From: Hydra vulgaris
Taxonomy: Eukaryota > Cnidaria > Hydrozoa > Anthoathecata > Hydridae
NCBI RefSeq assembly: GCF_038396675.1
Contig: NC_088932.1
Coordinates: 27,085,001-27,149,000 of the forward strand
Direction: 5' to 3'
Length of the DNA stretch: 64,000 nt
Position numbers and translations under genes: made by a program
Shown: piece by piece, positions 3,770-39,212 of the stretch
Numbering within the stretch: position 1 is the stretch's first letter
Layout: each line of letters starts with the position of its first letter
The notes under the pieces: model-generated
The model's input: the letters and a program-made list of their open reading frames with translations, nothing else
Told to the model about the DNA's origin: nothing
Database searches by the model: none

Positions 3770-4842
3770 ATTGCATAATTTAAAGTTTACATAAGTTATC
3801 TAACCTATATAAAATTGTAAAATATGAACGAATGTGTATGCAAATATCTATTTAAATACTTACTTTCGTTCACATTTTCTTATACAAAAAGTGCTGTGAC
3901 CCTTTCTCTCCATAAACTGGGGGTGTGGTTGCCATAGTTGAATTGATGCATAAATATTGGTTGCCATGAGTTTTGCGCAAACATGCCTGAATGAGTAACA
4001 GCAGTAGCAGAAGAAGCAGCAACATTAAATTTGATATTAAAATATTATAGGATAATTTCTAATAATCATTATGTCATCATTGGTCCTCCTGTTATACTAT
4101 TGATTTATTTACCGCAGTAACATAATTATTTTATCTTGCAATAGGTAAAAGTGTTGAGGTAGAGGCTATTGGTCTAGTCTGAATGAACTACATCTAAATA
4201 TCTCTGCTTTAATATTGCTGTGATAGTTTTTAATTTGTAGGATCAGTTCAGATCTCTGATATTTAATGCTAGAGTAACAAGTTATTTATTCAAAAATTTC
4301 AAAAATGGTTCATTTTTAATTATAAGATTTCCAAGGTCTTTATACTTCTTAAAAGAATATGCTCAGCTCATAAGTTATATTTTTTAATGCCTTTAGTTAT
4401 GAGGCATGCATAACACTTAAGGAAAAACTTTAAACTTTTTTACTGTTCAAGACAAGATGAAAAATGACAAATTTTTCTGATCATCGGTTGTAATCTGTCA
4501 TGATCCACTGTCGGTAACATGTATATACTTTGTCATATGACTTATCAAAATATAAATTGCATTAACCATAAATCTTATTTATTTAATGTACTCAATAACT
4601 CTGCCTAGGAGGACAATACTTAATTTAACTAACTTGACTCTACCAAAAGTTTCATAATAAAGTGTATAAGTACGTAGACAAGGGATTTGAATAAAAATAT
4701 TAATAATTTTCATACAATTTTTTACTAATTTTCTTACAAAAATTTTGATTTGATTTTTTTCACTGCTTAAATGTCTTTTTTTTTGTGTTTTGTTTTGTTT
4801 AAATACTTGATTTTTTTAAATTGTTTTTACTTTATTTCAGGA
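3770..4842. other. Non-coding AT-rich DNA left of the capsid element
   Basis: No gene, no RNA gene and no clear repeat unit. I searched here for an inverted copy of the right end of the capsid element (13.8-13.93 kb) by eye and found none. Confidence 0.4.
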
Positions 4843-4886
4843 AAATCCTTCGGATTTACTTTACATTGACCCGAAGGATTTACTTC
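4843..4886. repeat. Palindromic AAATCC-TTC-GGATTT repeat at the left edge
   Basis: Bases 4843-4857 form a 6-3-6 hairpin with loop TTC. A second, inverted-loop copy (CCGAAGGATTTACTTC) follows at 4871-4886. The same GGATTTACTT text recurs inside two genes of the element (8753-8781 and 8941-8966). Confidence 0.7.
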
Positions 4887-5009
4887 ACTTTTTTTTTTTT
4901 TTTAATTTTTTTCTACGACAGAAAACTGTAGTTATTTATAAATATTTATTAATTGTAAATAACTTTACATATATTATTGTATGTTTATCTGCATTATATC
5001 TTAAAATTT

Positions 5010-5364
5010 TTAAATTATCAAGATTAACTTTAGATTTTTTATCTTATTTTTATATACTTCAATTTGATCTCTACAAAATTTTTCAATAGATTCAATCATT
5101 GCAATAAACTTTTCTTGTTCATCAGATTTTTCTTTATCACATACAAATGACATTGAATAACCATTAAGTTTATGATTTTTAAAATCTCTATTTTCACACA
5201 CACCATAGGAAAAAGAAGGTAATGTTTTAATGAGAACAGGACCAGCACCTGTTGGATATTTATATGTAAGTTGTAATTTTTGATATGGAACTGGCTTATC
5301 AGCTTTGAATATCTTTTACAAATAAATTTTTAATATCAAATGATTCAATTGTTATAAATGCCAT
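5010..5364 (-). pseudogene. Small protein resembling a large-DNA-virus family of unknown function (frameshifted)
   Basis: It starts at an ATG at 5364, just after a TATATAAAAATA box, and ends at 5010. One frameshift near 5303-5312 splits it, and the 63-residue downstream part stays open. The diagnostic block is FSYGVCENRDFKNHKLNGYS, ahead of an acidic/basic coiled tail. I recall similar blocks in small proteins of nucleocytoplasmic large DNA viruses annotated only as a domain of unknown function (DUF5871-type). That match is from memory and needs a profile search. It is the last gene of the leftward array. A nucleic-acid-binding role is possible but not shown. Confidence 0.5.
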
Positions 5365-5433
5365 TATTTTTATATATAAAATATTTTTTTTTAATTTAAT
5401 TTAAAAAAAATATTTTTACAATGTAGAATTTTT

Positions 5434-5915
5434 TTACATTTTTTTTAACTTTTCAGAATTGAATACTTCAATCTTATATCCATTATCAACCTTTCCATCA
5501 CGCGATTCAAAATATTCATATCCATGTTTAGTTTCTTTCATAGCTCTATATAATGATTTGTATACTATTTCTTCCCCTGTGTCTACGTTTGTTAATTTAA
5601 TAGTGACTGGCTTTTTCTTAATTGATCTCAATCTTTCATATTTTGGATCTATTTCTTTTTTTTTTATTTTATCTCATTTATTCTAGGACGACCAACAGGT
5701 CTTTTATCTACATTTTCTCCTTTTACTTCATGAATTCTAGGACGACCAACAGGCCTTTTTTCATCAGTTGATTCAACTACTTTTGACATTATTTTATCTT
5801 TATCTATCAACTTATTATCTATAGTTAGCATTAATAATGTTACATTATTGTCTGATGTTTTTGTTATATTATTTTCTCTCAATAGATTTTGTAAATCTTT
5901 TCTAGTATAATACAT
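5434..5915 (-). pseudogene. AT-hook protein, frameshifted in a poly-A tract
   Basis: The N-terminal part (5915-5664, 83 residues) ends in two near-identical AT-hook cores, KRPVGRPRIHE and KRPVGRPRINE, about 15 residues apart. GRP within basic residues is the minor-groove-binding core. The frame then breaks in the A-run around 5656-5668. The other frame continues with KKEIDPKYERLRSIKKKP and a conserved-looking 60-residue tail (5631-5434). I read this as one protein of about 150 residues. The start follows TTATATAATAAAAATG. It probably binds AT-rich DNA, perhaps as a packaging or transcription factor, but this is inference from the hooks only. Confidence 0.65.
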
Positions 5916-5964
5916 TTTTATTATATAAAGAAAAAAATTTTTTTAATTCATTTTTTATATAAAA

Positions 5965-7248
5965 TTAATGAATTTGAGTAAGCCTGTTTCGATCTGATTG
6001 AAAGTTTAATAATTTATCTGATATTACAAGAGCATATGCCATAGTATTTGCTGGTACTGCAGTATTAAATGTTGCATTAATTGATATATTTACTATTGAT
6101 GAATCTAATCTTTCTCTTTGATTACTAACATCAAAAACCATAATTGGAAATAAACCTCTACATTCAGTATATAGAATGTTTCCATTTGTAATCAAGTCAC
6201 TAGTTCCATAAAATTTTTTTACTAAAATCAGATGCAGTACCATAAGCTAATGAATACTTCATATTTGGAAATGATAGATTATAGTTAAGTTTGGGATAAT
6301 TTTTATTACTAACAACAACTTCCATATTTTGCAAGTCGCAATGATCGAATAATGAAGGATTTGTTGTTTGATCTAATAACTTATTTGTTTGAAATCCAAC
6401 AATGACATATCTAGGTTTTTTAGAAGATGCCTTTGGACTAAGTTGCCAATTAAATGATGTAGTTTGTGATACTGCCATACTATTAAGACGACGCTCTCTG
6501 TAAGCTGATTGGATAGTTACTTTTGATGATATCATACTGAAAAGTTTAGATTCTTGTTCAAATGATGGATCTAACTGTGGAATGTATAATGCTACTTTAT
6601 CAAGAACAACTTTACCAGCAACTACATTATTAGCTCTAAATATGGCATTATTGTCACTTCCTCTAGTAAGAGTTAATGTTTGTATAAATCCAAAAACAGA
6701 TTTGTCATAATCATCGCAGAAACCAAAAATGTGGTTTAAAGGTATACGAAATGAAAATGCTCCCTTTGTAGTTGGTTTTTGTATTATTACTCCTTGCCTA
6801 ATTGCAAATCCAATGTTATCTGTTAGCGATGCTGTTGTTGAGAAATCTTTATACCATAATTGATTTAATCCCTTTGAAACTTGAAAGTTGTTAGAATATT
6901 TTAACAATCCAAACATTGTTGTAGCTACACCTGGATTATCAATTGTCTCTACATCTTTAGATGGTAATTTATATGATATCCTATCGAATAGATACATGAT
7001 ACCATTATTTATTAAAGATATTACATCTGTATTAGCATAACCTGTCCCATCATTTTTAAGAAGTGTCCCTTCAACTAAAAATAAGCTTTAGATGGTAGTG
7101 TATATAAATCAGTTTGATCAATTGTAATTCTTATGTCTCCGCTATTTAGATTTGTACCAATTATCGGATTATAGGCATAATATTGACATCTTTCAATTCC
7201 TACATCTTTCATTGGCTCATCATAATTAAATACTTCAGAAAATGTCAT
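5965..7248 (-). pseudogene. Major capsid protein, double jelly-roll family (two frameshifts)
   Basis: About 425 residues in three pieces. They are 7248 to ~7080 (start MTFSEVFNYDEP), 6997 to ~6214 (the long middle part) and ~6214 to 5965 (the end). The breaks lie in homopolymers at 7077-7081 and 6214-6220. Blocks that I recognise from capsid proteins of animal-genome polinton-like elements are IPLNHIFGFCDDYDK, NPSLFDHCDLQNM, NYNLSFPNMKYSLAYG and INATFNTAVPANTMAYALVISD, in the expected order. The protein would form the pseudo-hexameric capsomer. Its size fits the short animal-element version, not the larger Polinton capsid. The gene lies mid-array beside a pVI-like gene, the usual neighbourhood. 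Family confidence is high, and the exact subfamily is open. Confidence 0.85.
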
Positions 7249-7253
7249 TTTTT

Positions 7254-7755
7254 TTATCTAATAATGAATTTTTTAAATAATCTGAGCCCATTCCCTTTTT
7301 TAACTAATTCTTCAATTCTAATAGCATTTTCACTTCGAATTGATTTCTTTGGTTTTATTGAAGATCCATATGCTAAATTACTAAGATTTGCTTCATTACT
7401 TTGTGTTCCAGATCTAATCAAGTTTGATAATAGCTCTTTACTTTTTTTTATCAAGATTTGATTTAGATACTTTATCAATTAATTTTTTTCCTTTTTCTAT
7501 TGCAGTATTTTTAGCAGCTTCTATTGCTGATAATGATAGTTCTTTTCCTGCTGATTTAGCAGCAGTTAATGCACTTTTTCCTAAATCAGTAGCTGCAAGC
7601 TTTTTAACCATAGCTGATGATACTTTAGTTACATTTGATGTTGCTGCTTGTCTAAACATCTCTCGAAAATTATATCTCTCGAAAAGAGTATCGAAAATTC
7701 CACTTCCTCCAATTATATGCTTCTTAATATATCTCTTATTTTTAATGATGATCAT
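7254..7755 (-). pseudogene. pVI-like / minor virion protein, Ala-Lys rich (frameshifted)
   Basis: The start at 7755 (MIIIKNK) is preferred over the upstream ATG because GTATATAAAAATG, the element's start motif, abuts it. An early Gly-rich motif HIIGGSG is followed by a long Ala/Lys amphipathic region (SALTAAKSAG, AIEKGKKLIDKV). The frame breaks in the T-run at 7441-7449 and resumes as SKELLSNLIRSGTQ to the stop at 7254. Basic Ala-rich amphipathic proteins next to the capsid gene are typical of adenovirus pVI-type cement/membrane-lytic proteins and their Polinton analogues. The functional call is by composition and position only. Confidence 0.5.
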
Positions 7756-7833
7756 TTTTATATACACAATTTTTTTTATTCATACTGCTAGAATATTTTG
7801 TATTGCTTTATATTCTTTACTATTTAATATCTT

Positions 7834-8261
7834 TTAACCCTGCCTAAGTAATTCATCGCTAATTGTTACAGCTTCATTTCTTGATGAATTATTACCAGCC
7901 TCCCAATCAGCTATTCGCAATCCTAACATTTCAACTAATACATTAGGATCACTTGGAAGAATTACAGTTTTAATTCTTCTCTTATCTCAATCTTAGATGC
8001 ATAAGGATCCTTTTGATCCATATGGAGTATCTCAGTATTTTGAAAAGTAAGTGCTAATTGATCTTTCAACTTTGATATCCCTTTACTTATACCAGATTGA
8101 CTTTCAATGAGTGGACTATACAACTTTGTCAAGCCTTGATTAAAATTAGATTCACCAATCTTTTCATTAAGAGCATTTTGTTGTACTATTTTTTTCAAAG
8201 CTTTGTATTCTTCAATAGCTTGATTTCTCTTTTCAGGATCAGTAATTTTTAAAAACGACAT
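7834..8261 (-). pseudogene. Coiled-coil protein of unknown function (frameshifted near the C-terminus)
   Basis: The start at 8261 (MSFLKITDPEKRNQAIEEY) follows AATATTAAAAATG, so the nine residues upstream are ignored. The first 99 residues are a charged, probably helical region with heptad-like spacing. The frame breaks in the four-T run at 7968-7971 and continues to a stop at 7834 with a conserved-looking tail, PSDPNVLVEMLGLRIADWEA. I recall related MSFLKITDP proteins accompanying the same capsid genes in other animal genomes, without known function. A scaffold or virion role would be a guess. Confidence 0.5.
7838..7966 (-). other. C-terminal segment of the coiled-coil gene in the shifted frame
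   Basis: This stretch is easily missed because it lacks a start codon. It is open in the frame after the break at 7968-7971 and reads RNEAVTISDELLRQG before the stop. Confidence 0.5.
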
Positions 8262-8445
8262 TTTTAATATTGAAAAATAAAAAAACATAACAAAACATAG
8301 AATTTTATGTTATGTTTTTATTTATATTTTTCAATATTAATAATATTTTTAATTTCATAATCTTTATAAGTGACGTCATCTGATTCTAATAATCCTGTTA
8401 GTACTGCAATTGATAAAATACTTTTTATTAATTTTTTTTCTTTAG

Positions 8446-8895
8446 TCACACTTTAATTGACACACAAAAGTCACACTTTAATTGAAGTACATATTTATCT
8501 ATCATTCTCAATTTATAATTCTTTTTAACATTACTCCATTGTTTATTATAATCTTTAATTTCACTTTCTACTTTAAAATAAAAATCAGTATCTTTATTCC
8601 AAATAAGTTTATAAAGTTTTTTTCTTTCACCATCACTATAAGTATCTGGTATTTGAAAATTACCTTTTTCAGTAATAAGATTATAATTATATTGACATTT
8701 TGAATCATATCTTAAATCCAAAGGACCTATGCGAAGTAATTCAGTAACACATGATTTACTTCGCATTAATCCTTCGGATTTAATAATAGCTCCTGCTTTT
8801 CCAAATCCTAATAGTTCCAAATATTTTTTTTTATTCTTATCTTCTTCACGCTTACTACATTCTAAAAAGAAAGGATAAAACATATTTATTAACAA
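8446..8895 (-). CDS. Unknown 149-residue protein with an embedded palindrome
   Basis: Intact ORF. The likely start is the first or fifth Met (MLINMFYPFF). It is rich in Lys, Tyr and Cys, with no transmembrane segment and no motif that I recognise. Codons for IIKSEGLMRSKS coincide with the element's palindromic repeat (8753-8781), so part of the protein seems to have come from insertion of that repeat. It lies between the coiled-coil gene and the membrane protein gene. The start lacks the clear TATATA box of its neighbours. Confidence 0.5.
   Translation of the reverse strand: MLINMFYPFFLECSKREEDKNKKKYLELLGFGKAGAIIKSEGLMRSKSCVTELLRIGPLDLRYDSKCQYNYNLITEKGNFQIPDTYSDGERKKLYKLIWNKDTDFYFKVESEIKDYNKQWSNVKKNYKLRMIDKYVLQLKCDFCVSIKV
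8753..8781. repeat. Palindromic repeat inside a gene
   Basis: GATTTACTTCGCATT followed by AATCC-TTC-GGATT (8768-8780). It is in frame within the 8446-8895 gene and near-identical to 8941-8966. Confidence 0.7.
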
Positions 8896-8915
8896 GTATG
8901 AATTAATTTAAGTTA

Positions 8916-9587
8916 TTATTTGTTTTTAATAATATTTTCAGATTTACTTCGTCCTTCGGATTTACTAAATCTCATTTGAAGTAAATTAATCGCTTCTTCT
9001 CTTCCTTGATTAATTAATGATATCTTAGTTTGTTCATCGATATCTTTTTTAATTTTTGTCCTAATATCTTCAAGCATAACTTTAAACTTTTCAAATTCGC
9101 TAAGTATCAGCTCAAATTCTTTATCATCTATTTTCCCATCTACTAAAGCTTTAGAAATATGATCGCTTATCGTATTCAATTTTGAACTAGCAAGTATTTT
9201 AATGCTTTCATGCTTTTCTACTTTTAAATTTAATTTTTTATTCACTTGACCTCCTATCAATGAAAGAGCTCCAATCGCTAATGCTGCACCTTCACATGCA
9301 ATAGCTATTGGAGTTGCTACTATTGTGGCTGAAAAACCAATTCCAACACTTCCTAGTGCCATTGTACTTCCAATTAACGCTACATCAACTGCAGAAATTA
9401 CTTTTATTGCCTTATGATACTTTTTACTTAATGTTAATCTCTTTTCTCTCTCAATTTCTATTTCTTTTTGAATTTCACTAATCTTATTCAGACGGTAAGC
9501 AATAGGATCTATCTGCTGTATTTCAGTATATTCATTTGGTAAAGTCGGATATAATTTATTCATATTTGAATTATTTAAATACTCCAT
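8916..9587 (-). CDS. Putative membrane protein with flanking coiled coils
   Basis: About 223 residues from MEYLNNSNMNKLYP. I chose this start because TTTATAAAATG abuts it. After a charged helical N-terminal region (IQKEIEIEREKRLTLSKKY) comes a long hydrophobic, small-residue stretch at roughly residues 60-115 (VALIGSTMALGSVGIGFSA..., IAIACEGAALAIGALSLIGG), enough for two membrane passes. A charged C-terminal coiled coil ends with SKSEGRSKSE, which is encoded by the palindromic repeat at 8941-8966. I recall this protein class from capsid-bearing elements in cnidarian genomes, with no known role. A virion-membrane or host-membrane role is possible. Confidence 0.6.
   Translation of the reverse strand: MEYLNNSNMNKLYPTLPNEYTEIQQIDPIAYRLNKISEIQKEIEIEREKRLTLSKKYHKAIKVISAVDVALIGSTMALGSVGIGFSATIVATPIAIACEGAALAIGALSLIGGQVNKKLNLKVEKHESIKILASSKLNTISDHISKALVDGKIDDKEFELILSEFEKFKVMLEDIRTKIKKDIDEQTKISLINQGREEAINLLQMRFSKSEGRSKSENIIKNK
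8941..8966. repeat. Palindromic repeat inside the membrane protein gene
   Basis: GATTTACTTCGTCCTTCGGATTTACT encodes the C-terminal SKSEGRSKSE on the - strand. The core TCC-TTC-GGA is at 8952-8960. Confidence 0.7.
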
Positions 9588-9618
9588 TTTATAAAGCAAA
9601 ATAAAATTATTTATTTTA

Positions 9619-9837
9619 CTAAATTAACATAGCATAATACATCACACCTTTTTTAATTGTTACTTCAATTGAATTATTGTTTTTAATAATCACAACAATA
9701 TCATCAACTGATTCTGATACAATATTGTTATCTAAACTTAGCATTTTTAATTTTAGACTATTTTCTAAAGAAATTAATACAAAACTAGGATCATCAATTT
9801 TTACACCTATTTGCAAAGATATAACTTTATGTGACAT
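9619..9837 (-). CDS. Small unknown protein, 72 residues
   Basis: Intact ORF beginning MSHKVISLQIGVKIDDPSF, six bases downstream of the stop of the next gene, so the two are probably read together. Alternating hydrophobic/polar residues suggest a beta-rich fold. A C-terminal NNSIEVTIKKGVMYY strand pattern would suit a small structural or fibre-like protein. No family recognised. Confidence 0.5.
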   Translation of the reverse strand: MSHKVISLQIGVKIDDPSFVLISLENSLKLKMLSLDNNIVSESVDDIVVIIKNNNSIEVTIKKGVMYYAMLI

Positions 9838-9843
9838 AAATGC

Positions 9844-10089
9844 TCATTTAATATCTTCCTGTGCAAATATTTTATATTTAGACCCATCAACTATTAATTC
9901 CTGCTTATTATCAAAAGTGTCATTAAATACAAAATAAGATTTTGAGGCTTTTATAACAGTACAAGGCAAACTAGTATCTACTAATCCATAATTAGGAGTA
10001 TTAATAATACAACTTGGAAGTGGCCTCTCATACCAAAAAGCTCTTTGACTTTTATTTATAAATTTATGTATCGGAGGATGATATACCAT
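9844..10089 (-). CDS. Small unknown protein, 81 residues
   Basis: Intact ORF MVYHPPIHKFINKSQRAFWY. The start follows GATATATCATAAAAATG, the element's start motif. Its features are Pro/Tyr/Trp-rich N-terminal residues and a short strand-rich remainder (KYKIFAQEDIK end). Its stop abuts the 9837 start. No family recognised. Its position between membrane and core protein genes suggests a virion component. Confidence 0.5.
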   Translation of the reverse strand: MVYHPPIHKFINKSQRAFWYERPLPSCIINTPNYGLVDTSLPCTVIKASKSYFVFNDTFDNKQELIVDGSKYKIFAQEDIK

Positions 10090-10153
10090 TTTTATGATAT
10101 ATCAAGATTTTTTTTAGATTCATGAAAAATCTTTGATTTTTTAAATTCTTTTT

Positions 10154-10615
10154 TTACAAAATCAAATTCAAAAAAGGTATATTAGCAAATGGTGAATTAG
10201 GCCCTAATAATAGACCTGCTCCAGTTCTCACATAACCATTTCCAGCACTTAAGTATAGTCCATCTCCTAATGATCCTCCACTTTTCCATGGACTCATAAA
10301 TAATCCACCTCCCATTTTAGTGAACTTAATTCCTTCTCCATTTCTAACTTTATAAAATCTTTTTTTACCAATACCATTTCCAGCAATTTTATTAATCAGA
10401 TTGTTCCCAGTTGCAGCTCCTACACCTGTAAGAAGTCCTGTTGCTAGAGACGGTATTACTTTTGATGCTAAAAAACTTCCAGCTGATCCTAAGAAAGGTA
10501 AAAGTGCTCCTAGAAATCCTCCCTTCTTTATTTTAGCATTGTACATGAGTTGTTTTTTGCTTAATTTTAGCACTACTCTTTTACCATCTTCATATGCTTT
10601 TGAAATTTTATTCAT
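10154..10615 (-). CDS. Adenovirus pX-like basic, Gly-rich core/membrane-active protein
   Basis: 153 residues, intact. The basic head (KLSKKQLMYNAKIKKGG) is followed by a hydrophobic Gly/Ala stretch at about residues 32-70 (GFLGALLPFLGSAGSFLASK). Gly-rich basic repeats follow (GNGIGKKRFYKV, KMGGGLFMSPWKSGGSLGDG). Proteins with KLSKxQ plus KxGGFLGALLP motifs accompany capsid genes in Polinton/adinto-like elements and are compared with adenovirus core protein X. The start overlaps the end of the upstream minor-capsid gene by 8 bases, so the pair is probably co-transcribed. The family is by motif; the function is inferred. Confidence 0.6.
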   Translation of the reverse strand: MNKISKAYEDGKRVVLKLSKKQLMYNAKIKKGGFLGALLPFLGSAGSFLASKVIPSLATGLLTGVGAATGNNLINKIAGNGIGKKRFYKVRNGEGIKFTKMGGGLFMSPWKSGGSLGDGLYLSAGNGYVRTGAGLLLGPNSPFANIPFLNLIL

Positions 10616-11495
10616 CTGTATTTGTTACAGCTAATGCATGTTCTCCATTAAAATCTGAATGTGATAATTCAATACTAACTCCAGTCTTTTCACTGATTGC
10701 TTTTTCAATTTTTTTCAATTGTCCTTCTGAAAGATGTATTTTAACATTAGTATAATTTGTAATTTTATTATAAGATTTTTTTTTTTCTCTTATGTGAAAT
10801 CTAATAGAAATTTTTTCACCTCTTAAATCAAGTTGATTTCCATCTTGATTACCTATTGTATTTACTAATGTTGAAATCGAATCTAACAATACACGTTGAT
10901 ATATTAAATTAATCGGTTCTTGAACAATTTTATATCCAGGACCGACATTTGGAAAAAATGAATATATAATTTTTTGTGTTTTTCCATCAACATATGAATC
11001 TTCTACTATACTAGATGTAACGTGTGTAGTATTCACTTTTAATATTTTCACAATACTTTCAAATTCATAATAACCTGTTGAATATATTTGATAACTAAAA
11101 CCTAAAATAGTCCTAATTGAGTTTGTAGTTGTAAAATCTACTTTATATCCTGTCTGAATATTTAAAGTTGAACGTAATGTATTGTTATTAGCTCCAATTG
11201 TTAAAGCTGGAACTCCTGATATTACATCACCATTTTTATTTAAAAATAATTCAATATACTTATTTATATCATCAATCTCATATGCTCCTACTGGAAGAAG
11301 AACATCAAACCAAGTCACCCCATTATCAGGACTGAATCTAAAATTGTTATTTGATAAATCAATATTTGGAAAACTATAATATGTCTCTAAACCAACTAGA
11401 GCCATTTCATATTGTTTATTTTTATCCAGTTCAATACTATAACTAAATTTATTTATTATTTCACTACTGTTTCCCTTTACATATATGCAAGGCAT
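10608..11495 (-). CDS. Probable penton / minor capsid protein
   Basis: 295 residues, intact. Start MPCIYVKGNSSEIINKF follows AATATATAAAAATG. Recognised blocks are IELDKNKQYEMALVGLETY, a beta-rich middle (NNNTLRSTLNIQTGY, IRTILGFSYQIY), FPNVGPGYKIVQEP and QDGNQLDLRGEKISIRFHI. The same blocks occur in a protein that I recall beside the short double-jelly-roll capsid in cnidarian and arthropod genomes. Strand-rich content and position fit a vertex (penton-type) jelly-roll protein, but no catalytic or binding residue proves it. Its 3' end overlaps the pX-like gene. Confidence 0.6.
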   Translation of the reverse strand: MPCIYVKGNSSEIINKFSYSIELDKNKQYEMALVGLETYYSFPNIDLSNNNFRFSPDNGVTWFDVLLPVGAYEIDDINKYIELFLNKNGDVISGVPALTIGANNNTLRSTLNIQTGYKVDFTTTNSIRTILGFSYQIYSTGYYEFESIVKILKVNTTHVTSSIVEDSYVDGKTQKIIYSFFPNVGPGYKIVQEPINLIYQRVLLDSISTLVNTIGNQDGNQLDLRGEKISIRFHIREKKKSYNKITNYTNVKIHLSEGQLKKIEKAISEKTGVSIELSHSDFNGEHALAVTNTDE

Positions 11496-11559
11496 TTTTA
11501 TATATTAAAAAATTTATTTATCAAGAATCCTTAAAAATTCAAAGAATTTTCTATAGATC

Positions 11560-12351
11560 TTAAGGATCTTTAAAATAGTCAGATGTAATATAAAAATTAT
11601 CAAATCCACTTCTATACTTTCCATCATCTTTTTCAGAAGATAAATCTATTACAACAAATCCATGCTTTTTCTTCCATGCAGTTCTACATAACTTTTTAAA
11701 CTCATCCTCTGACATATCACTCGATACATGATCTTTATAAATATGATTTAAATTCTTTGAATCTTGTGGAAATAAACAAATAAAATTTGCATTTTCTCTT
11801 ATAGTCTGTCTAGGCAACATAAAATAATTTTGTGCAAGATAGAAATAATCTACATTACTATGCCTCCCTCTTATATAATACTTCTCACATTTATTTTGCT
11901 TTGTCAGTTGCAAATCATCAAATATCATTAAATTATTATTACTAGCATCGAGATCTTCAGGATCTGGTACATCATCTGCTGTCTCAAAAAATTTACACTC
12001 CATATCAACTTTACTATTTTTCTCATTAAACGTTTTTGAAACTTCTTCAATTACTTCTTCAGGATTTTCTATTTTATCCTGATACTTTAACAAATTAAGA
12101 ATAACTTCTTTTGGTAATTTTTCTTCAAAAGATCTTTTTAATATTTTGTATTCAGGCTGAAATTGAGATTTTCCAAAAACTTGTAAATTGTTATAATCTA
12201 ACCAACCAGGTCTTAAAAGTAAATTTAATAATAAAGTAGTTTTTCCACAACCTGACTTTCCAACAATAATTCCTTTTATACTTTTAGGTAACAACTTACT
12301 ATTATTTTGTTTATTTCTTTTTACGTTCCATGATAAATCGACAACATCCAT
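11560..12351 (-). CDS. DNA-packaging ATPase (A32 / FtsK-HerA type)
   Basis: 263 residues, intact. Walker A GKSGCGKT is at residues 31-38 and Walker B LMIFDD at 141-146. After it comes a conserved IRGRHSNVDYFYLAQNYF block and LPRQTIREN, the sensor/arginine-finger region of viral genome-packaging ATPases. It would drive DNA into the capsid, so it supports a virus-like rather than a purely transposon life style. The length fits the short polinton-like versions. The start is set by TATATAAAAATG in a 33-bp divergent promoter shared with the + strand unit. This is the best-preserved gene of the element. Confidence 0.85.
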   Translation of the reverse strand: MDVVDLSWNVKRNKQNNSKLLPKSIKGIIVGKSGCGKTTLLLNLLLRPGWLDYNNLQVFGKSQFQPEYKILKRSFEEKLPKEVILNLLKYQDKIENPEEVIEEVSKTFNEKNSKVDMECKFFETADDVPDPEDLDASNNNLMIFDDLQLTKQNKCEKYYIRGRHSNVDYFYLAQNYFMLPRQTIRENANFICLFPQDSKNLNHIYKDHVSSDMSEDEFKKLCRTAWKKKHGFVVIDLSSEKDDGKYRSGFDNFYITSDYFKDP

Positions 12352-12384
12352 TTTTATATATAATTATTTTTTATATATAAAATA
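12352..12384. promoter_or_regulatory. Divergent promoter between the leftward and rightward units
   Basis: Only 33 bases separate two start codons. They contain two TATATA boxes facing apart: TATATAAAAATG leftward and TATATAAAATAATG rightward. The arrangement matches the start-proximal motif at most other genes of the element. Confidence 0.6.
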
Positions 12385-12886
12385 ATGTACTGTGTCAAAT
12401 GCAAAGAAAATACAAGTACACTAAATCAACAAAACTTTGTCAGCAAAAACAATAGAAATATGATTTGCAGAACTTGCGACATTTGCGGAACAACAAAAAC
12501 TCAATTTGTCAGATCCACTAAGAAAGGAGGAGACTTAGTCAACTCTATAATTTCAATAACTAAAAAAGTAAAATTACCATAGGCAAAATAACGCATATAA
12601 AGAATGGAGTAAACCTATAGATAGAGTTGATAATGCTGTTTATCATCATGATCTCGCATATCAACATTTTACAGATACTGCAAATAGAAATTTAGCCGAC
12701 AGAATAATGATTGAAGAAATGGGCGCTATAAAAAATCCAACTACACGCGAAAAAATTGAAAGAGGCATTATAAAACCTATCATCGCTTCTAAAGCAAAGT
12801 TTGGACTCGGTCTGAAAGACCCATGCAAAGTCGGTATTCAAAAAAACTACAATCGATCAGCGAAAAAGTCAAAGAAAAAAATGTGA
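12385..12886 (+). pseudogene. Zn-ribbon plus phospholipase-A2-like (VP1-type) domain, broken
   Basis: The first 65 residues hold two CxxC pairs (MYCVKCKEN, CRTCDICG), a zinc ribbon, ending KKVKLP at an early stop. In the next frame an open stretch continues KEWSKPIDRVDNAVYHHDLA, then a basic helix-rich tail, to a stop at 12884-12886. D..AVYHHD is the His-Asp active-site helix of parvovirus-VP1-type secreted phospholipase A2, used by virions to breach membranes. The glycine-rich calcium loop that should lie before it is absent, so sequence between the two frames appears deleted. The tail overlaps the start of the integrase frame, so this may once have been one fused gene. Confidence 0.65.
12809..12821. 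repeat. GGTCT-GAA-AGACC mini-hairpin in the PLA2-like gene
   Basis: A 5-3-5 perfect hairpin followed by CATGCAAAGT. It interrupts the basic tail of the PLA2-like frame. A related hairpin plus CATGCAGAGT occurs at 13782-13818. Confidence 0.65.
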
Positions 12887-13775
12887 AATGGTCTGACGAA
12901 CTTGCGAACGAACTTCATAGACCCGTTATAAAACATTTCAGAAAAAGAAAAGTAATTGCAAATGGAATCGATGAAATATGGGCTGCTGATTTAGTCGACA
13001 TGCAATCTTTCTCTAAATTCAACAATGGTATAAAATACTTACTCATGGTAATAGATGTATTTTCAAAGTATAGATGGATTGTTCCATTAAAGAATAAAAC
13101 TGGAGTTGATGTTGCAAATGCTTTAAATAAAATATTTAAAGAACGAAAGTGCAGAAAATTGTGGGTAAATAAAGGTCGAGAATTTTATAATAAGCATGTT
13201 AAAGCTCTAGGTGTTGAGTTATACTCAAATGAAAATGAAGAAAAAAGTTGTCTAGTTGAACGTTGGAATAGAACAATGAAAGAGAAAATGTTCAAATACT
13301 TTTCAGCTATTTCTACTAGAAAATATATTGACGTCTTAGATGAAATGGTAAATAAATACAACAACACAAGACATTCTTCAATTAAAATGACACCAGTTAA
13401 AGCTAGTGATGAAAAGAATAAGAATATTTTTTGGTTAAACTTTAATTGTTTTCAATTAATGATAGAGTCAGGATAACTAAAAAGAAGACAACATTTGAAA
13501 AAGGATACACACCAAGATGGACTGAAGAAGTTTTTACTATATCACAAATTCAGTACACAGATCCTCCAACTTAAAAAATAACTGACAATAATGGTGAAGA
13601 AATACAAGGAACTTTTTATGAACAAGAACTGCAAAAAACGAATCAAGAAATATTTAGAATTGAAAAAGTGATTCGCAAACTCAAAAATAAATCACTAGTA
13701 AAGTGGTATGGATATCCTAAATCGTTTAATTCATGGGTTGACAATAAAGAATTGATAGATTTTTCAGATCCATAA
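12823..13775 (+). pseudogene. Retroviral-type integrase with chromodomain (c-integrase), inactivated
   Basis: The core (ORF to 13476) shows WAADLVDM with the first catalytic Asp, FSKYRWIVPLKNKTG, then LWVNKGREF, where the family has Asp in place of Asn (codon 13168-13170). The third residue, Glu, is kept in LVERWNRTMKEKM. After a frameshift near 13430-13460 the C-terminal part reads RVRITKKKTTFEKGYTPRW. It has an in-frame TAA at 13572-13574 and a chromodomain-like IEKVIRKLKN, LVKWYGYPKSFNSWV, ending at 13775. This is the Polinton/adintovirus integrase architecture, with the chromodomain perhaps steering integration to histone marks. The Asp-to-Asn change alone should stop catalysis. Confidence 0.85.
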
Positions 13776-13781
13776 GAAGTA

Positions 13782-13818
13782 GGTTCTTCGAACCCATGCA
13801 GAGTAAGTCTGAAAGACT
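13782..13818. repeat. Two mini-hairpins after the integrase stop
   Basis: GGTTC-TTC-GAACC (13782-13794) and AGTCT-GAA-AGACT (13806-13818) are separated by CATGCAGAGTA. Both are perfect 5-3-5 structures. They could act at the 3' end of the integrase transcript, but the copy at 12809 is internal, so a mobile-repeat origin fits better. Confidence 0.65.
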
Positions 13819-13930
13819 CATAAAAGTTGTGGTCAATTTTATATCTTAAAATATATATAAAATTGTGGCTGGATAAATGGTCGAAAATAAAAATGGCTCA
13901 GAATCGGCCTTTTCCTACGACTAAAGTTTA

Positions 13931-17106: not shown

Positions 17107-20100
17107 GGGGAGACCGGGGCAGGTTGGCCCGCTTTTTTTTTCTTGATGTGTAACTTTTTAGCTTTATGTTTTTTAATTTATTTTTTTGTGGAAAAAGGTT
17201 GACTAGTCCCTAGACTATCTGGAAAAAACTTTAATAAAAGTTTATAATAGCTTTTCAACACATGTAAAACTGTTTTTGTTAGGTCATATTGGGTGGATTG
17301 GGGCAGGTTGGCCCACATACAACTTATGGCAGACTTTGAGGTGGGAAAACGCTCATTGAGCAAAAACAACTTTATAACTTGATAAAACGAAATTGAAACA
17401 ACTTTAAAACAATAAACTACAAAAAAATGAAGTAAAAACAAAATACAACAGTAACACTTTATTTAACAACAGTATAAACATTTATAATATAACCCCTTTG
17501 CATCTTTTTCTACACAACTCACATGGGCTCAACACTGACAGCTTGAACACTGTATCCACACAGCACCTGGAAGGCTGTTTGAGAATGGTTTGAAGCAACT
17601 AAGACACAAGATATCTTCCTCATTATCATCTTTGTTTTTCTTGTTGCGTTTTTGCTTTTACATGTTGGCTGGCAAAAATCTTGCTTGTTTTAGAGTTACT
17701 TGGACCGGCTTCTTTGATAGAAAATAGTTTTTTATTTTTTGAGCCATTCTGTTTTTTTTTCTTTTACTGCTTTCTATTCCTGTTGCAAGGCTTTTTTAAC
17801 TGGTGTATCAGTTAATATAGCAGAAATTTGTTTCCGATTTCTGAGCTTATTTACATTGTTTTCAAATCACTTCTTCAGGAGATGGTATAAGTGAAGAGTT
17901 TGGAGTAGCACCTGATGTGCTGTCTAAATCTAGAAAATTTCCTTTCTTAGATTTTGATTCATTTGAATTAAATTTTTTGAATTTTTTTTGTTTACAATCC
18001 ACAGATAAAACTTTGTTGCTAGGTGTTTATTTAGTGATGCTAAAATCCACAGATGACATTTTAGTGCTAGGGTCTGGTCTATCTGTTAAATATGATGGCA
18101 AAAAATCATTTTCTGAAAAAATATCTCTGTTAAATGGATAAATACCTGTTGCTTGGAAACCACTAATTATGTTGCTTTGGAGTTATAGCATTAGGAAGTG
18201 CTGTTTTTACTATACCAGGTATGTCATAGATAGTCATAGGTTGTTTGTTTACAGTAACCCATACATCACATGCTGAGTTCACAAACTTTTTAAAAGGACC
18301 ATAAACACTTATATCTAATGGTTGTTATTTATGACTACAGTGTGCTGGAAATGATAAAAGTGTGATACCATTTTCTTTACAAAAATCAAGTACTGCTGGA
18401 TCAATATGAGAGCTGCGGTTGTCAATCAATACCAGACAAGGCCGATCATTGGAACAACGTGCATGGATAGAAAAATGTTTGATATATTTAAGAAAAGTTG
18501 TCTCTGTCATCCATCCTGAAGAATGTGCTGGTCCATCACATCCTATTGGTCCATCATGAATAAAGTGAGATTTAAAATTAACTCCAGGAAAGATAGAATA
18601 TGGAGGTATGCTATTGCCAATCGCACTAACCGCCAAAGCCATAATCACTAATGCTCCTCTTTCTGCCAATGTTACACGACCTATCTGGCGAAAGCCTCTA
18701 CGTGCAACAACACAATCAGGCCTGCACTGTTGTGATTCCAGTCTCATCAATGTTCCAAATGTCTAAAGCACTTAATTTTAACCTAGTCAAAACATTATGT
18801 TAAGTTGTCTTAAAATAAATTTACATTATGTTTATTAAAACTTGTTGCTTGAGGAGAGAGAATAGAAAGCTTTGGATGCCTTTTTAAGAATCCGGAGAAC
18901 TAATCACTACCAGCAGATTGAAGTTCTATCCATGAGTGAGGAATTTTTTTGCTAAAAGCAACAGCATATGTATAAGCAAACTGATGAACTTCTTTAGGAG
19001 AAAGACTAAAGTAACTATCACTTGCTTTCATTAGGTATTCTTCAAGCAAAACTTCCTGCTCAGGTTCAAATACCTAAAGAAATATAAAATATATATTACC
19101 ATTGCACATAAACATTAAAATCATATTAGGTATCTGTCCCAATCTCTAAAAAAGTTCGAACTTTTAAATATACCATAGCAGTGTTTTATATTGAAGTATC
19201 ATATTAAGTGTTTAAGCAAGTTATGATTCTAAATTATATTCAAACTAGTTAGAAAAAATAGAAATACCTGAAATCTTTTGGCATAGCCAAACTTGTGCCA
19301 GGGTTTTTATCTAATTTAGGTGATAGTAAATCTCTCCCTATAGCTGTGTTATCAGGCGTATGTTCTGCATTAGGCTTATGTACTGTTGCAGTAACATAAA
19401 ACTCAAGTGTGTTATCATCATCAAGTTCTACTTCAGTTTGAACTGAAGCATTAGATATAGATGGCAACCTTTTGGATATGCAATACCTTCCTAGAATCTT
19501 ACATGGTATATTAAATTCTCAACTAAGTGCTCTTATTGATCTTTTATATTTTGTAACTTGTATCACTGCCAATAACATTGTTTCTTCTGACACTTTTCCA
19601 TGTTGTGACTTGCAAATATAATTTCGTACCATTTTTAGGTAGGTATAAAAAAAAATGCAAAAACCAAGAGTACATTACTTGATTACATGTTTTATATTTA
19701 ACTATTTCTTTTTTATGCATTTATATACCTGCATACTTATTTACTTAAAAAGTTACATTTTATATTTTTCTTTTTTAAAATACTAAATACTTATTTACTT
19801 TTAATCATAAATCATAACTCATGTTTAACAACATTAATAATTTACATATATATATTTTATATTAAATTTATATATCATATGTAAATTTAAGTGTTAAGCA
19901 TGAAAAGTGTATTATGTATAAAGTATTAAATTTATATATGTAAGTATAACTAGTATGTAAAAGATTAAATATCAATTAAATTTACATATATAAGTTATAT
20001 TATATGTTAAATAACATATATAATAAAAATATATAAATATATACAATATTTAAGTTAGACATATGTAAATCTAAGTTAAAATTACATTTTATAATATGAT

Positions 20101-27141: not shown

Positions 27142-28524
27142 CAGTATCGGACAAAACGAGTGCAACCAAATAATGCTAATTTAGTTTCTTTATATAAAAG
27201 TGCTGCATTTTTTCAATTTAGAGAAATAACTATGTAATTGTTTAGAAACAAAGTTCTTCAAGTTTTATTCATCACAAAGTTCATTATTTGTACACGAAAA
27301 TTAATAAATTAATCAAAAGTATTAAAAAAAGTTGACTTCCTTCTGGACAAAACAAGTGCAACTCCACAAAATGTTGACCAAGCTGTATTTCGCTATCAAT
27401 ATTTCGTGGCGAATCTTTTGTTGTCAATTACAGCCTTGCATCTTCGAGGCATAGATTCGATCAGAAGATCAATGAAACTTTGTGGAATCGCTGCCCAGGC
27501 CTTTTGGATTTGTTCAAACAGTTGATCCTTATTACGAACACCTTCACGATTAATTCTGCGGTTGATGATCTCCCACAGGTTCTCGATAGGGTTGAGATCC
27601 GGAGATTGAGGCGGCCAATCCATCACCGATAGGTGGTTGTCTTGAAACCACTGCTTGACTACTTTTGCAGTGTGTTTTGGATCGTTGTCTTGCTGAAAAA
27701 CCCATTTTATTGGCATATTCCATTCAGCATGAGGTAACATAACATCTTTCAGGATATTTTTATACATGAAACGGTCCATTATTCCATCGTTTCGATGTAT
27801 TGGACCTAGACCGTTAGCAGAAAAACACCCCCAGACCATTACATTGCCTCCACCATGCTTCACGGTCTTATGGCAGTAACGTAAATCGAGGCGTTTTCCG
27901 GCCGGTCGACGTACACGGCAAATGCCATCGCTCCCAATGATGTTGAACTTCGATTCATCACTGAACAGGACAGTTCGCCATTTCTGCACATTCCAATCAA
28001 TATGAGATGTAGCAAACAGGAGTCTTTTCTTCTGGTTTTTTAGTGAAATCAGCGGTTTCTTTGCAGGGCGTCGAGAAAACAATCCGGCTTCAACAGCACG
28101 TCGTCTGATTGTTCGGTCCGATACAGGCAGCTCTAATTGCTTTTGTTTCTGGATATTTCTGGATGCTACTGGATGTTTCCAGATGCTTCTTCTGGAAACT
28201 TCTGGTAGCTTCTGCATGCTTCTGGAAATTTCTCGATACTTCCTTTAATTATTAAAAAACTTCTGTGACGTTGACACGGACCAGACTTAAGAAAATGAAA
28301 CAAACCAAAAAAGTTATACTTGTTTTGTCCGCTGCAAAATGGCACTTGTCAACGAAATTCTGCCTGTGTGCTGTCACCTGTCAGCTGATTGCTCATGCCA
28401 TGGCATGCTATGACTCCTGAACTGTTTGCTGTAGTAGTATAGTTCGTTTCGTTTTTAAGACGTAAAATTAGGAACACTTTTTAGCATTGTTCGATGTTGG
28501 TTGCAAATGTTTTGTCCAATACTG
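27142..28524 (-). mobile_element. Tc1-type transposon with IR/DR ends
   Basis: The outer ends CAGTATCGGACAAAACGAG and its inverse (TTTTGTCCAATACTG at 28510-28524) are flanked by TA (27140-27141, 28525-28526). Inner direct copies GGACAAAACAAGTGCAAC at about 27344-27361 and, inverted, CTTGTTTTGTCCGC near 28320 give the IR/DR layout used by Tc1 transposases for paired-end binding. The element is 1,383 bp and carries one long transposase frame. It is among the youngest-looking elements here. Confidence 0.9.
27396..28217 (-). pseudogene. Tc1 transposase with complete DD34E core but altered N-terminus
   Basis: 273 residues. The catalytic triad is Asp87 (LFSDESKF), Asp177 (FQQDNDPKH) and Glu212 (SPDLNPIENLWE), with 34 residues between the last two. 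All core landmarks (VMVWGCFSANG, WPPQSPDLNP, SMPRRCKAVI) are intact to the stop at 27396. The second helix-turn-helix (VSDRTIRRRAVEAGL) is kept. The first paired-type helix-turn-helix is missing, replaced by MQKLPEVSRRSIWKHPVASR. That stretch is encoded by a degenerate CCAGAAG/CATCCAG repeat. End recognition is therefore probably lost, although the catalytic part could still be expressed. Confidence 0.85.
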
Positions 28525-31059: not shown

Positions 31060-34000
31060 GGGTGTTTGTGAAAAGATAAATTACGCAAAAACTTTTGACG
31101 TGAACGGATGTGCTTTTGTAAACTAAATTAAAAATGGCTAAATTTACCGTTTCTCAAATTAAAGACCTATTAGGTATTTAAGAGAATACTTTATTAAAAA
31201 TGTTTAATGAGAAGTTTGATAAAATGGAAACTAAGCTATTAAATCTTCAAGAAGAAAATACAAAACTAAAAAAAGAAACTAATAAACTAATGAGGTCGGC
31301 GGAGTTTATTAGCGAGAAATATGGTTGATTCTTGTTCAAGAACTTTCTGAAATGAAAAAAAAACCAAACTTATCATCAAGCCAAAATAATATAACAAACG
31401 TTGTCAAAGACAAACTAGCTGAGTTGGAAGACAGGATCAGAAGAAATAACCTAAGGTTTACGCGAATTGAAGAAGACGAAAATGAAACGTGGAAATTGAG
31501 CGAGGAAAAGATTCAAAACGTTTAAAAGACAAAACTAGGATTTAAAGGTAATGTTGAAATTGAACAGGCGCTCAGGACGGGGAAAAAAAGTAGCGATGAA
31601 AAAAAGTTCAACAGAACCATAATAGTTAAAATTTTAAACTACAAAGACAAAAAAAACTGCGTTGGATAACTATGTTCAGTTAAAGTTGTGGAACGATTGA
31701 TTTTACGTAAACGAAGACTACAGCGAAAGAACTTTAGAAATGCGAAAACAGTTATTTAAAGAAGCAAAAGATTTGAAAGCCAAAGGTAAATATGCTAAAG
31801 TTGTACATAATAAACTCGTAACGCGCGACTTTCAAGAAATTCTTCTATCTTAGAGTTATTAATTTTATCTTTATTAATATATAAATTTTTTAATTTTGAT
31901 TGTTTTTAAATACTCAAATGGATTCAAATCGCTCTGAGAATTTTGATATTTTTAAATTCAATGATTTTATACTTAACAAAGAGTCCGATCCGGATCAAAG
32001 TTATTTTAGTGAAACAGATGCTTTACAAAGCAACTGCAGCTATTTATATAGTTTTAAAATAAAAGAATTTCTTGAGCGTGATTTAATGCAGTTCATATAA
32101 ATATAAGAAGTTTAAAAAAAAGTTTTGAAAATCTTTGCAAACGTTTTGAGGAAAATTTAACTATTTTTAGTGTAATGTGCCTAACTGAAACCTGGTGTAG
32201 TTCTGATGACTCAAATTTAGATGATAATTTTAAAATACCGGGCTTTAATTTGATTTCATTAGGACGGAAAACATATAAACACGGCGGTGATTTAATTATT
32301 TATGTAAAAGAAAACCTACGGTATTATATTAGGCATGACATGAGTATTTCTGACGTCAATATAGAGGTTTTAACGATTGAAATATTGATTAATAAAACTA
32401 AAAACATTGTGATTAGCTGTTGTTATCGCCCAGCTACTAGCGAAATTAAAACATTTAGTACACTTTTTCATGTTATAAATAAAAGCAATCACGAAAAAAA
32501 AATTACTTTACATATTAGGTGGTCTGAATTTAAGTTGCTTTGAGTATCACGTCGAAAAAGACATTAATGGGTTTATAATGGCCTATTTGAAAATGGAGCA
32601 GTTCCTCTAATATACAAACCAACTAGAATTACTCAAACAACAACTTCCTTAATTGATAACATTATGATTTGATTATTATAACCAACAATATTTTTGATAA
32701 TTCACTTAAAAAAGGCATTAATAAAAGTGTCATATCTGATCAATTCCCTACTTTCTTTTCAATTGATATTTATGCGAAAAATTTTTATAATGAAAAAAAA
32801 TCATTTAAAAAACGAATTTTTCATTATATAAACCTAGAATCTTTTAAATATTAACTTTCTTTAGTTAATCAGAACATTAATAACTTTTCTGAAGACATTA
32901 ATTTAATATACAAATTTTTCTGTAAAATTTTTTCTGAAATTTATGATTTTATTAAAATTTTTTCTGAAATTTATTCAATTATCCCAAAGTAGACATAAAT
33001 TTACAAACATAAAAAAATTAAGATTACTAAGGGTATTCTAACATCTTCTAAAATTAAATAAAAACTTTATATTATATATTTAAAATCAAAAACAACTGAG
33101 AGCAAGACCATTTATAAAAATTGCGTAAGACTATTTGAACGCTTAAGGAAAAATTCAAAATCAATATACTACACTCATTTACTTGAAAAATACAAATTAA
33201 ACTCAAAACGCACTTGGCAACTAATAGACGAAATTACTGGTATCACTAAAAAAATATCGCAATTTTTGCCCTCAACAATTGCTTTCGAATTTAATAAATA
33301 TTTTGTATCTGTAGGACCAAACCTTGCCGAAAAAATTCCAAACCCTAAAAAATTAATAAAAGCAACATATGACCCTCTAAACTCGTATCTAAATTTTTTT
33401 GATTTGTCTTTTGAAGAATTTGAAAGTGCTTTTAAATTGTTAAAGTCAAATAAAGCAGTTGGTCCAGATAATGTCAATGGGAATGTTATCATAAATTGTT
33501 TTGACGTTTTAAAAGACATACTTTTTAAATGCTCTATTAATCAGAGAGTTTTTCCTGATGATTTAAAAATAGCAAAAATTATTCCTATATTTAAAGAAGG
33601 AGAAAAAACTAATGTAAAACACTGTCGTTCAATTTCTTTACTCTCTGTTTTTTCTAAAATTTCAGAAAGAATTTTGTACAACAGAATATACAATCACCTT
33701 TTATCAAACAAATTATTATATAACATGCAATACGGATTTAAAAAAAATAATTCAACAGAGCATGCTATTATTCAGCTTACAAGAAGTAAATCAGACTCAT
33801 TTAATAATTCTAAATTCACATTGGGAATATTATTGATTTAGCGAAAGCGTTTGATACCATTGATCATAAAATTCTTGCTAAAAAATTAAAATATTATGGT
33901 ATAACAGGCATTTTTTTAAAATTGTTGAAAAGTTTTTTTTTCTTTGCTTCCAACAAGGCTGCAAGCAGCCACTAATTAAAGTTGAAAGCTACTGAAAGAG

Positions 34001-37639: not shown

Positions 37640-39212
37640 TTAAATTGATCAAGGAATATTTCCTGATCAGTTGAAAATAGCGAAAGTTACACCAATATTT
37701 AAAGGAGGAGAGTTGTTGAATGTCAGTAAATACCGAATATCTCTGTTCTCTTTGTTTTTTCTAAAATTTTAGAGAGAATTCTTTATAACAAAATTTTCCA
37801 ACATCTGTCTCAAAATAATATGCTATATAAAAATCAATATGGGTTTAAGAAAAATAACTCTACTGAGCACGCTATACTAAAAATAACTCAATATATTACA
37901 TATTCATTAGAAAAGTCCAAATTTACTTTAGGCATTTTTGTTGACTTATCAAAAGCATTTGATATGATTGACCATAAAATCCTTTTCAAAAAACTAAAAT
38001 ATTTTCGAATCACAGCAAATTTTCTTAGGCTAATAAAAAGTTATTTACACAAAAGAAAACAATTTGCCCATTTTGACCAATCATCGCGATCTCAATTATT
38101 AGAAATAACTTGCGGAGTTCCTCAAGAATCTGTACTAAGACCTCTTCTTTTTTTCTCATTTACATAAACGACTCTATAAAGCACCCAATTTGATGACAGT
38201 TATGTTTGCTGATGATACAAATTTTTTTTTATCTCAGAGCGACATAACGACACTATTTTATTGTATGGACAATGAACTAATGAAAGTTTCTTAATGGTTT
38301 AAATCAAACAAACTTTCTCTGAATATTGAAAAAACAAAATAGTCTCTTTTTCATTCTAACTCTAAAAAAACGTCTACTTCCAATCAAACTTCCTCTACTT
38401 TTTATTGATGGCGTTCTAATTAAGAGGGCAACATGTACAAACTTTTTAGGAGTTTCAATTGATGAAAATCTCACATGGAAAAAACATATCGAAAACATTA
38501 CCTGCAAAATTTCGAAAAGTATATGTATATTATATAAAGCAAGAAGCATGTTAAATAAGCATATTTTTACTCAAATATACCACTCATGCATTCATTGCCA
38601 CATAAACTATGCAAATGCGGCTTGGGGTAGTGTCAATAAAAGTAAATTAGAGCCTCTTTATATCTTGTTCTCTGCATTTTAAGACTGGAACTTATTTGTA
38701 TTTAAAAGGAAAATAAAAGATATCATTCTCTCTATTGAAAAAGTACTTATATATTTTTAAATTTAATTATTTTGATTTATTTATAATGTTTTTACGAATT
38801 CTTATATAAAAAAATATTTATTCAACTATATACTTGTATATTTAAATTTTGTTTTGTTAATTTTATTTTTTTGTATCATGTTAAATTAATTTATACATTT
38901 TATACCTATCAAGTCTTGTATTTTAAGTATTTATATAAAACTTTTATTTTTACTTCTAACTTTCGTTTTATAAACTTTATTTGACTGCCTTATTTATTTT
39001 ATACACATTACAAAAATTTTTTAAACACGTAACCATCGTAAGCGGTTCTTGATGACAAGATCATTTGATCTTCTGCAAGTCTCCGCGTTCTTATTTTATA
39101 TGTAACAAAACTTGTAATTTTTTGTTTATATGCGTTCTTCTTTCATTTATTTTATTGTAATAGTTATTATGAAGAAATAAAAGAACAAAAAAAAAAAAAA
39201 AAAAAAAAAATA
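37640..39212 (+). mobile_element. Second copy of LINE A, 5'-truncated, with poly(A) end
   Basis: It starts inside the RT (GIFPDQLKIAKVTPIFKGGE-like text) and continues YGFKKNNSTEHAILKITQYI, VDLSKAFDMIDHKI and TCGVPQESVLRPLLF. The catalytic motif is kept here as VMFADDTNFF-like text (38205-38230). The thumb region follows (38326-38682, NFLGVSIDENLTWKKHIENI) to an internal truncation. About 500 bp of 3'UTR ends in A-runs at 39188-39210. It gives the 3' end that LINE A at 31060 lacks. Confidence 0.8.

Follow-up and report, generated by a model that had tools for sequence, protein, structure and literature searches.

We report that a region of Hydra vulgaris chromosomal DNA carrying an intact packaging ATPase together with a broken double-jelly-roll capsid, a penton, a PLA2-like domain and a chromodomain integrase is very probably (about 0.93) the right-hand 9.1 kb of an endogenous Hydra Polinton/adintovirus, truncated and decayed in this copy, which in its fuller form measures about 16-17 kb. 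The region lies within a stretch of 64,000 nucleotides (NCBI RefSeq assembly GCF_038396675.1, contig NC_088932.1), hereafter the window, which corresponds to C13:27085001-27149000 of the 911-Mb, 15-contig assembly used for the genome searches; plain coordinates are those of the window, and L numbers denote pieces of other copies. A sequence-only reading had proposed a compact 9-kb, capsid-encoding, integrating element of Polinton/adintovirus type, decayed in this copy, in a cnidarian host. The host, the type of element (by family and fold matches, ends and target duplications) and the decay (broken capsid, penton, PLA2 and integrase frames) were all confirmed; the compact size was not, since 4843/4845 is a breakpoint inside an element of about 17 kb whose fuller copies carry a PolB-like region further left. 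As assembled, the window copy is incapable of replication, particle making or insertion on its own, because both the left repeat and the polymerase region are missing from it, the genes for capsid, penton, PLA2 and integrase are all broken, and the integrase further lacks one catalytic acid. The principal features are as follows.

4843..4846, no strand: truncation point, beyond which the DNA on the left bears no relation to the element; also the left edge of the near-identical duplicated block (L029:345 pairs with 4845; L009 has no match to the window)
4845..13922, (-), the strand of the morphogenesis array: surviving right part, 9,078 bp, of a ~17-kb element (copies L024, L025 and L027 and a twin copy, L009 and L029, extend left of 4845)
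5965..7248, (-): double-jelly-roll capsid gene (PF21738, 3.3e-27 at 6200-6997 and 4.8e-7 at 5965-6243; tblastn segments; fold of the full-length relative P0256)
10154..11495, (-): penton (10608-11495) followed by a 'pX-like' region (10154-10615), split over two frames (database relatives; fold matches)
11560..12351, (-): genome-packaging ATPase, whole 263-amino-acid frame (Pox_A32, 5e-9; 72% identical to FtsK, P0009, of 'Hydra adintovirus'; tree)
12385..12880, (+): DUF5679 and PLA2-like domain in two frames (DUF5679 at 12385-12582, 5e-10; PF08398 at 12581-12880, 7e-6)
12823..13476, (+): retrovirus-like integrase core (rve, 5.1e-6, below the Pfam cut-off; compared with 10 other copies)
13446..13772, (+): integrase C terminus including the chromodomain, in a frame other than that of the core and with a stop inside (Chromo, 1.6e-4 at 13575-13772, below the cut-off)
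13816..13922, (+): right terminal inverted repeat of ~105 bp, ending CTACGACT at 13922

The truncation was recognised from a twin of the window copy on the same chromosome, at an offset of 741,658 bases. Twin and window were identical at 3,789 of 3,789 bases around the ATPase, differed at 8 of 5,218 bases over window 4845-10062, and were 99.57%, 99.97% and 100% alike in three 3-kb pieces of the right flank; pieces of the twin block 82 kb and 252 kb further on were 100% and 99.7% identical, and the likeness was not found at C13:26.90 Mb. Left of 4845 the twin continues with the element and the window with unrelated DNA. Because the two diverge to the left of this position and are alike to its right, 4845 is the border of a duplicated block and not the end of a compact element. 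The block as a whole is present twice on C13, 742 kb apart (window 4845 to beyond 62983 versus C13:26348187 onward), and was sampled over 250 kb (to C13:26.602 Mb), in which seven pieces were 99.57-100% identical.

The block is either a recent segmental duplication or a doubling in the assembly, and the window copy would have been truncated by the copying, 742 kb away, of a block whose start lies within the element, or by the doubling of that block in assembly. That the truncation is an artefact, in which a second haplotype was placed 742 kb away with the join inside the element, falls just short of an even chance in our estimation: the absence of any difference over stretches of 3,789 and 3,001 bases, with at most 0.43% elsewhere, in pieces spread over 250 kb of one chromosome, a border inside a multi-copy repeat, and 5 kb of N, possibly a gap, directly left of the window, are what it would produce, whereas a recent real segmental duplication predicts equal identity, and the identity of the element is unaffected either way. 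The twin is itself rearranged, recombined or imperfectly assembled, since its flanks show no target duplication; a stretch of N (L035:1-1159) lies outside the element, and ~1.2 kb (end of L035, start of L009) matched no compared copy.

Other copies gave the same picture of the left boundary. Alignment with the window begins at 4845 in copies on C2 and C14 and at 4852 in a copy on C4, and copies spanning 4845 also align mutually leftward of it for more than 5 kb. This left continuation was seen in the twin and in L024, L025, L027, L037 and L038; the twin and several copies run 7-8 kb left, via the PolB-like region, to a ~105-bp terminal inverted repeat, the farthest left point being the inverted repeat of the right end. 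The terminal repeat search placed no left repeat near the window copy, including the 4.8 kb of the window that can be read to the left of 4845, whereas the twin has one (L035:3797). A compact 9-kb capsid-making, integrating lineage without a polymerase is therefore most improbable: the window copy does span 9.1 kb with no PolB seen within it, N occupies the 5 kb directly left of the window, and shorter repeat-to-repeat copies of 10.9, 11.0, 11.4 and 12.4 kb occur, but the twin and other copies run left across the very same point, and the 11.4-kb copy (L006) is without 6010-10627, an internal deletion and not the form of the window copy. A 9-kb element was accordingly rejected, being contradicted for the window copy by the continuing twin.

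The left part of the fuller copies was read mainly in L031, which encodes a 268-amino-acid piece matching endonuclease VII (2.3e-5) and DNA polymerase phrog_1907 (2e-4), a 459-amino-acid piece with putative PolB-like motifs and no Pfam match, and a 455-amino-acid DUF2961 protein (1.9e-9). To the right of this part, L024 encodes a Rho_N protein (8.7e-9) and DUF2738 pieces. For one PolB-like piece no relative was found in the phage collection and none in PDB sequences (one chance-level match). A search of the genome with DNA_pol_B_2 gave no match anywhere, controls included, and is hence uninformative. Adintovirus PolB carries an N-terminal OTU-like domain according to an excerpt of PMC11071296. 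As a separate observation, the leftmost gene in two fuller copies matched DUF2961 (L031:1660-3027, (-), 1.9e-9; L038:7542-8531, (+), 4e-4, below the cut-off) and is absent from the window copy; its product is possibly a particle-surface protein.

The terminal repeats provided measured ends for the family. The right boundary of the region in the sequence-only reading proved to be real, as the terminal repeat ends at 13922. Repeats of ~105 bp were found at both ends of 11 copies, in the form AGTAGTAG...CTACTACT with small variants and with starts that are mostly AGTAGTAG; the window copy retains the right one only. Eight of the ten right-end pieces read reach a common terminus, and L017 and L018, a duplicate pair, stop at 13815. 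Seven of these eight end in CTACTACT and one (L019) in CTACTAAT. The genome search with the repeat gave 40 matches, of which 20 were used as ten facing pairs and 20, the window's own among them, were left unpaired; two facing matches on C15 (51285705/51303935, 18.2 kb apart) were not paired, since the integrase-side end of that copy lies near 51297758 (L023). The facing pairs enclose 17.1 (twin), 16.8, 16.7, 16.0, 16.0, 15.8, 12.4, 11.4, 11.0 and 10.9 kb, and a copy at C14:20.4 Mb, measured from piece alignments outside these pairs, ~17.0 kb, so that seven copies have 15.8-17.1 kb between their repeats. Target duplications of 6 bp, read by eye in 11 copies, were perfect in six (one within a CATA repeat), had one mismatch in three and were absent in two. 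The two repeat arms differ by 0-9%, the zero coming from a partial 72-bp alignment.

Two kinds of right end were also observed, the last ~20 bp before CTACTACT differing as a block in four of eight pieces (L014, L016, L020 and L022 versus L013, L015, L019 and L023) while the remaining repeat is common to all; this suggests either that related integrases recognise two types of end or that element families have recombined with each other. L017 and L018 (C4:31.457 and 31.478 Mb), in opposite orientation, 24 kb apart and with a common truncated right flank, represent a local inverted duplication.

Genome-wide, at least 146 ATPase matches and at least 153 integrase matches were found. When 150 of the 153 integrase matches were used for pairing (three were dropped), an integrase from the list lay no more than 4 kb from 73 of the 146 ATPase matches, in divergent orientation in every case, with 0.19 expected by chance. 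The arrangement cannot be attributed to chance, because it was found again in dozens of copies, and the divergence of the integrase unit from a leftward morphogenesis array, proposed from the window alone, thus recurs elsewhere in 73/73 nearby pairs. The sequence-only reading had been staked on two points, a double-jelly-roll fold and the same gene order in other copies; the fold was found for a full-length Hydra capsid relative, and the divergent integrase/ATPase order was found elsewhere.

Alignment with relatives by tblastn showed the capsid gene to be divided into three segments that occupy two frames and include an in-frame stop. The predicted fold of P0256, a full-length Hydra capsid relative, matches double-jelly-roll capsids, and the proposed short double-jelly-roll capsid is accordingly upheld as to family (PF21738 and the fold of P0256), the gene here being in broken pieces. 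A 99%-identical capsid entry, P0242, was considered as proof of an intact capsid and rejected, its segments matching the broken frames of the window; by comparison of the sequences, P0242 is most likely a gene model that bridges the window locus or its twin with introns. NCBIfam and PHROGs profile searches contributed nothing further on the capsid, and no relative was obtained from IMG/VR with the capsid alignment or from PDB sequences with the capsid profile. Among 120 of 1,695 capsid matches listed, none was named as an adintovirus capsid and most names were uninformative; an excerpt of PMC11071296 describes the adintovirus hexon as recognisable by a simple protein search against adintoviruses. 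Across the listed matches of the ATPase, penton and capsid, the named sequence relatives were Hydra proteins, most others being uninformatively named.

The penton open reading frame (ORF), albeit from a weak model (predicted local distance difference test score 54), gave fold matches to mavirus and adenovirus pentons, which bears out the probable penton at low model confidence. Mavirus and other virophages, which have an integrating lifestyle, resemble the Hydra family in penton and capsid folds, a similarity at fold level only. In three database relatives of 461-466 amino acids the penton and the 'pX-like' region form one continuous protein, whereas 116 of the 120 penton matches listed are at most 287 amino acids long, i.e. 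penton alone, and 22 aligned relatives are without the region. The proposed 'pX-like' protein was thus sustained as a region continuous with the penton in part of the relatives; the name itself was given by no tool. The packaging ATPase was substantiated by Pox_A32 (5e-9) and by a relative named FtsK: 'FtsK [Hydra adintovirus]' ranked 9 of 1,694 ATPase matches, with 72% identity over 99% of the query. In a quick tree of 121 rows the window ATPase and 'Hydra adintovirus' fell in one 14-row set (Shimodaira-Hasegawa-like approximate likelihood ratio support, 99). Neither the ATPase nor its alignment had a relative in IMG/VR, and the ATPase had none in the phage collection. A host-domesticated capsid/ATPase locus kept for function would agree with an ATPase frame that is whole and identical in the twin, but is highly unlikely given the broken capsid, penton, PLA2 and integrase, the duplicated block that explains the identity of the twin, and the many copies elsewhere with ATPase stops.

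In the divergent unit, the DUF5679 match at 12385-12582 presumably represents a Zn-ribbon-like domain, and PF08398 (12581-12880, 7e-6) corroborates the PLA2-like domain. The chromodomain integrase also stood, with rve (5.1e-6) and Chromo (1.6e-4) both below the Pfam cut-off. At the second of the three catalytic acid positions the window integrase core has a non-acid; this acid is kept in all ten other copies compared, and all three (D-D-E) in six of the ten, two of the ten being a duplicate pair.

Several observations weigh against the reading of the region as part of a larger, decayed Polinton/adintovirus. L026 and L028, two of the five left pieces first examined, do not span 4845, and other copies are also truncated, at other points (the L007 match starts at 11052). 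Pfam DNA_pol_B_2 matched none of the PolB-like pieces, the PolB assignment coming from a weak PHROG match and putative motifs, and no maturation protease of adenain/Ulp1 type was found in the pieces scanned, which did not include every ORF. Among the matches listed, the other 73 of 146 ATPase matches are without an integrase nearby, and both the twin and the C14:20.4 Mb copy are without a matching target duplication. Moreover, an excerpt of PMC10120064 attributes many apparent stops in protist elements of this kind to assembly errors (multi-copy elements; stops and frameshifts), so the window copy may be less decayed than it looks; should the twin be an assembly double, it offers no independent test of the frames.

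The remaining frames of the window copy are as follows.

5010..5201, (-): ORF at the cut edge; in copy L024 this region lies within a DUF2738 protein (L024:2078-2602, 8.7e-8; L024:1764-2093, 5.4e-6; L038:1163-1669, 4.5e-11)
5434..5915, (-): two small ORFs, the second with repeated RPVGRPRI (AT-hook-like) motifs (AT_hook, 0.012 for 5664-5915, below the cut-off)
7254..7767, (-): two small basic ORFs upstream of the capsid gene (7438-7767, no match above the cut-off)
7962..8288, (-): 108-amino-acid ORF, from the ORF list
8446..8895, (-): 149-amino-acid ORF, holding at 8712-8783 an inverted pair related to the palindromic unit described below
8916..9599, (-): 227-amino-acid ORF with a hydrophobic stretch (no match above the Pfam cut-off)
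9619..10089, (-): two small ORFs (9844-10089 scanned in profile searches)

The 'pVI-like' label of the sequence-only reading was not supported, as neither 7438-7767 nor 8916-9599 had a match above the Pfam cut-off.

A unit of ~24 nucleotides with a palindromic core (e.g. AATCCGAAGGATT or GGTCTGAAAGACC, then ATGCRAAGT) recurs in the element, both within frames and at the ends of several genes. Followed within the examined copy pieces, it occurs at window 4843-4890, 8712-8783, 8950-8967, ~12805-12832 and 13785-13822, at L024:1561-1590 and 1980-2030, and at L027:1957-2005. The left site holds two or three tandem units, varying by copy, and the truncation at 4845 coincides with a unit; at the PLA2/integrase border the unit is the same in most of 10 aligned rows. 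A loose pattern gave 5 window sites, a count reached by 4 of 100 shuffles, against an expected 1.76, which is a weak enrichment; a strict pattern gave none in the window. Palindromic repeats that spread within genes are known, and the unit resembles them.

Outside the element, window 27399-28244 (-) holds an open piece of 282 amino acids of a Tc1-like transposase (DDE_3, 3e-16; HTH_Tnp_Tc3_2, 5e-13). Fragments of DDE transposases and reverse transcriptases lie at 18328-18762 (-), 41844-42284 (-), 33062-33838 (+) and 37730-38164 (+), five of the eight ORFs scanned having a transposon match.

Judged by sequence, the family is of the Polinton/adintovirus kind and forms a lineage that is close to the recorded 'Hydra adintovirus' yet separate from it. 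That third-party annotation record (17,334-bp contig) comes from the same host genus, has an ATPase 72% identical to that of the window in the same 14-row tree set, and at 17.3 kb is similar in length to the 15.8-17.1 kb of the present family; it is not the same lineage, because the genome of the window itself holds many ATPase copies with 85-97% identity to the window ATPase, versus 72% for the record. Hydra Polinton-1 (P1-HM), named in a figure legend of PMC11071308, is likewise a Polinton of a Hydra host, a likeness by name and host alone. Vertebrate Mavericks, as described in an excerpt of PMC8097293, have (AGT)2//(ACT)2 ends and 6-bp target duplications, and the Hydra family shares with these Mavericks/Polintons the ends, the duplications and the ATPase, capsid, penton and integrase, its PolB being only PolB-like. 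The same excerpt places the vertebrate integrase in the capsid-gene module and the ATPase beside PolB, whereas in the Hydra family the capsid, penton, ATPase and PolB-like region occupy a single strand, with divergence confined to the DUF5679/PLA2 and integrase part.

We tentatively raise, as a rather unlikely extension, that the Hydra elements form a distinct cnidarian Polinton/adintovirus branch, recognisable by an array of PolB, capsid, penton and ATPase on one strand, a divergent unit of DUF5679/PLA2, integrase and chromodomain, a penton-pX fusion in part of the family, and 24-nucleotide palindromic units that spread in its own genes and possibly serve as breakpoints. Such a subgroup is plausible because the gene order differs from that of vertebrate Mavericks and because, as reported in an excerpt of PMC10120064, among metazoan capsid genes those of cnidarians alone fall outside the main Maverick-Polinton cluster. 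Of the suggestion that gene order could define a subgroup, the difference from vertebrate Mavericks (excerpt of PMC8097293) thus holds, and the subgroup itself is possible.

In its fuller form the element inserts through the retrovirus-like integrase, yielding the 6-bp target duplications. By analogy with its group, the chromodomain would steer integration to chromatin, and the PolB-like protein would copy the element, probably by protein priming. Judging from folds and families, capsid, penton and packaging ATPase would build and fill an icosahedral particle, and the PLA2-like domain, as in parvoviruses, may breach the endosomal membrane. As the case illustrates, a Polinton of normal size can be mistaken for a 'compact capsid-making element' where a breakpoint from duplication or assembly falls within it. 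Hydra gains a family with at least 146 ATPase matches, measured ends and target duplications, in which the 0-9% difference between repeats allows recent insertions to be distinguished from old ones, and gene order becomes a usable character for sorting cnidarian Polintons.

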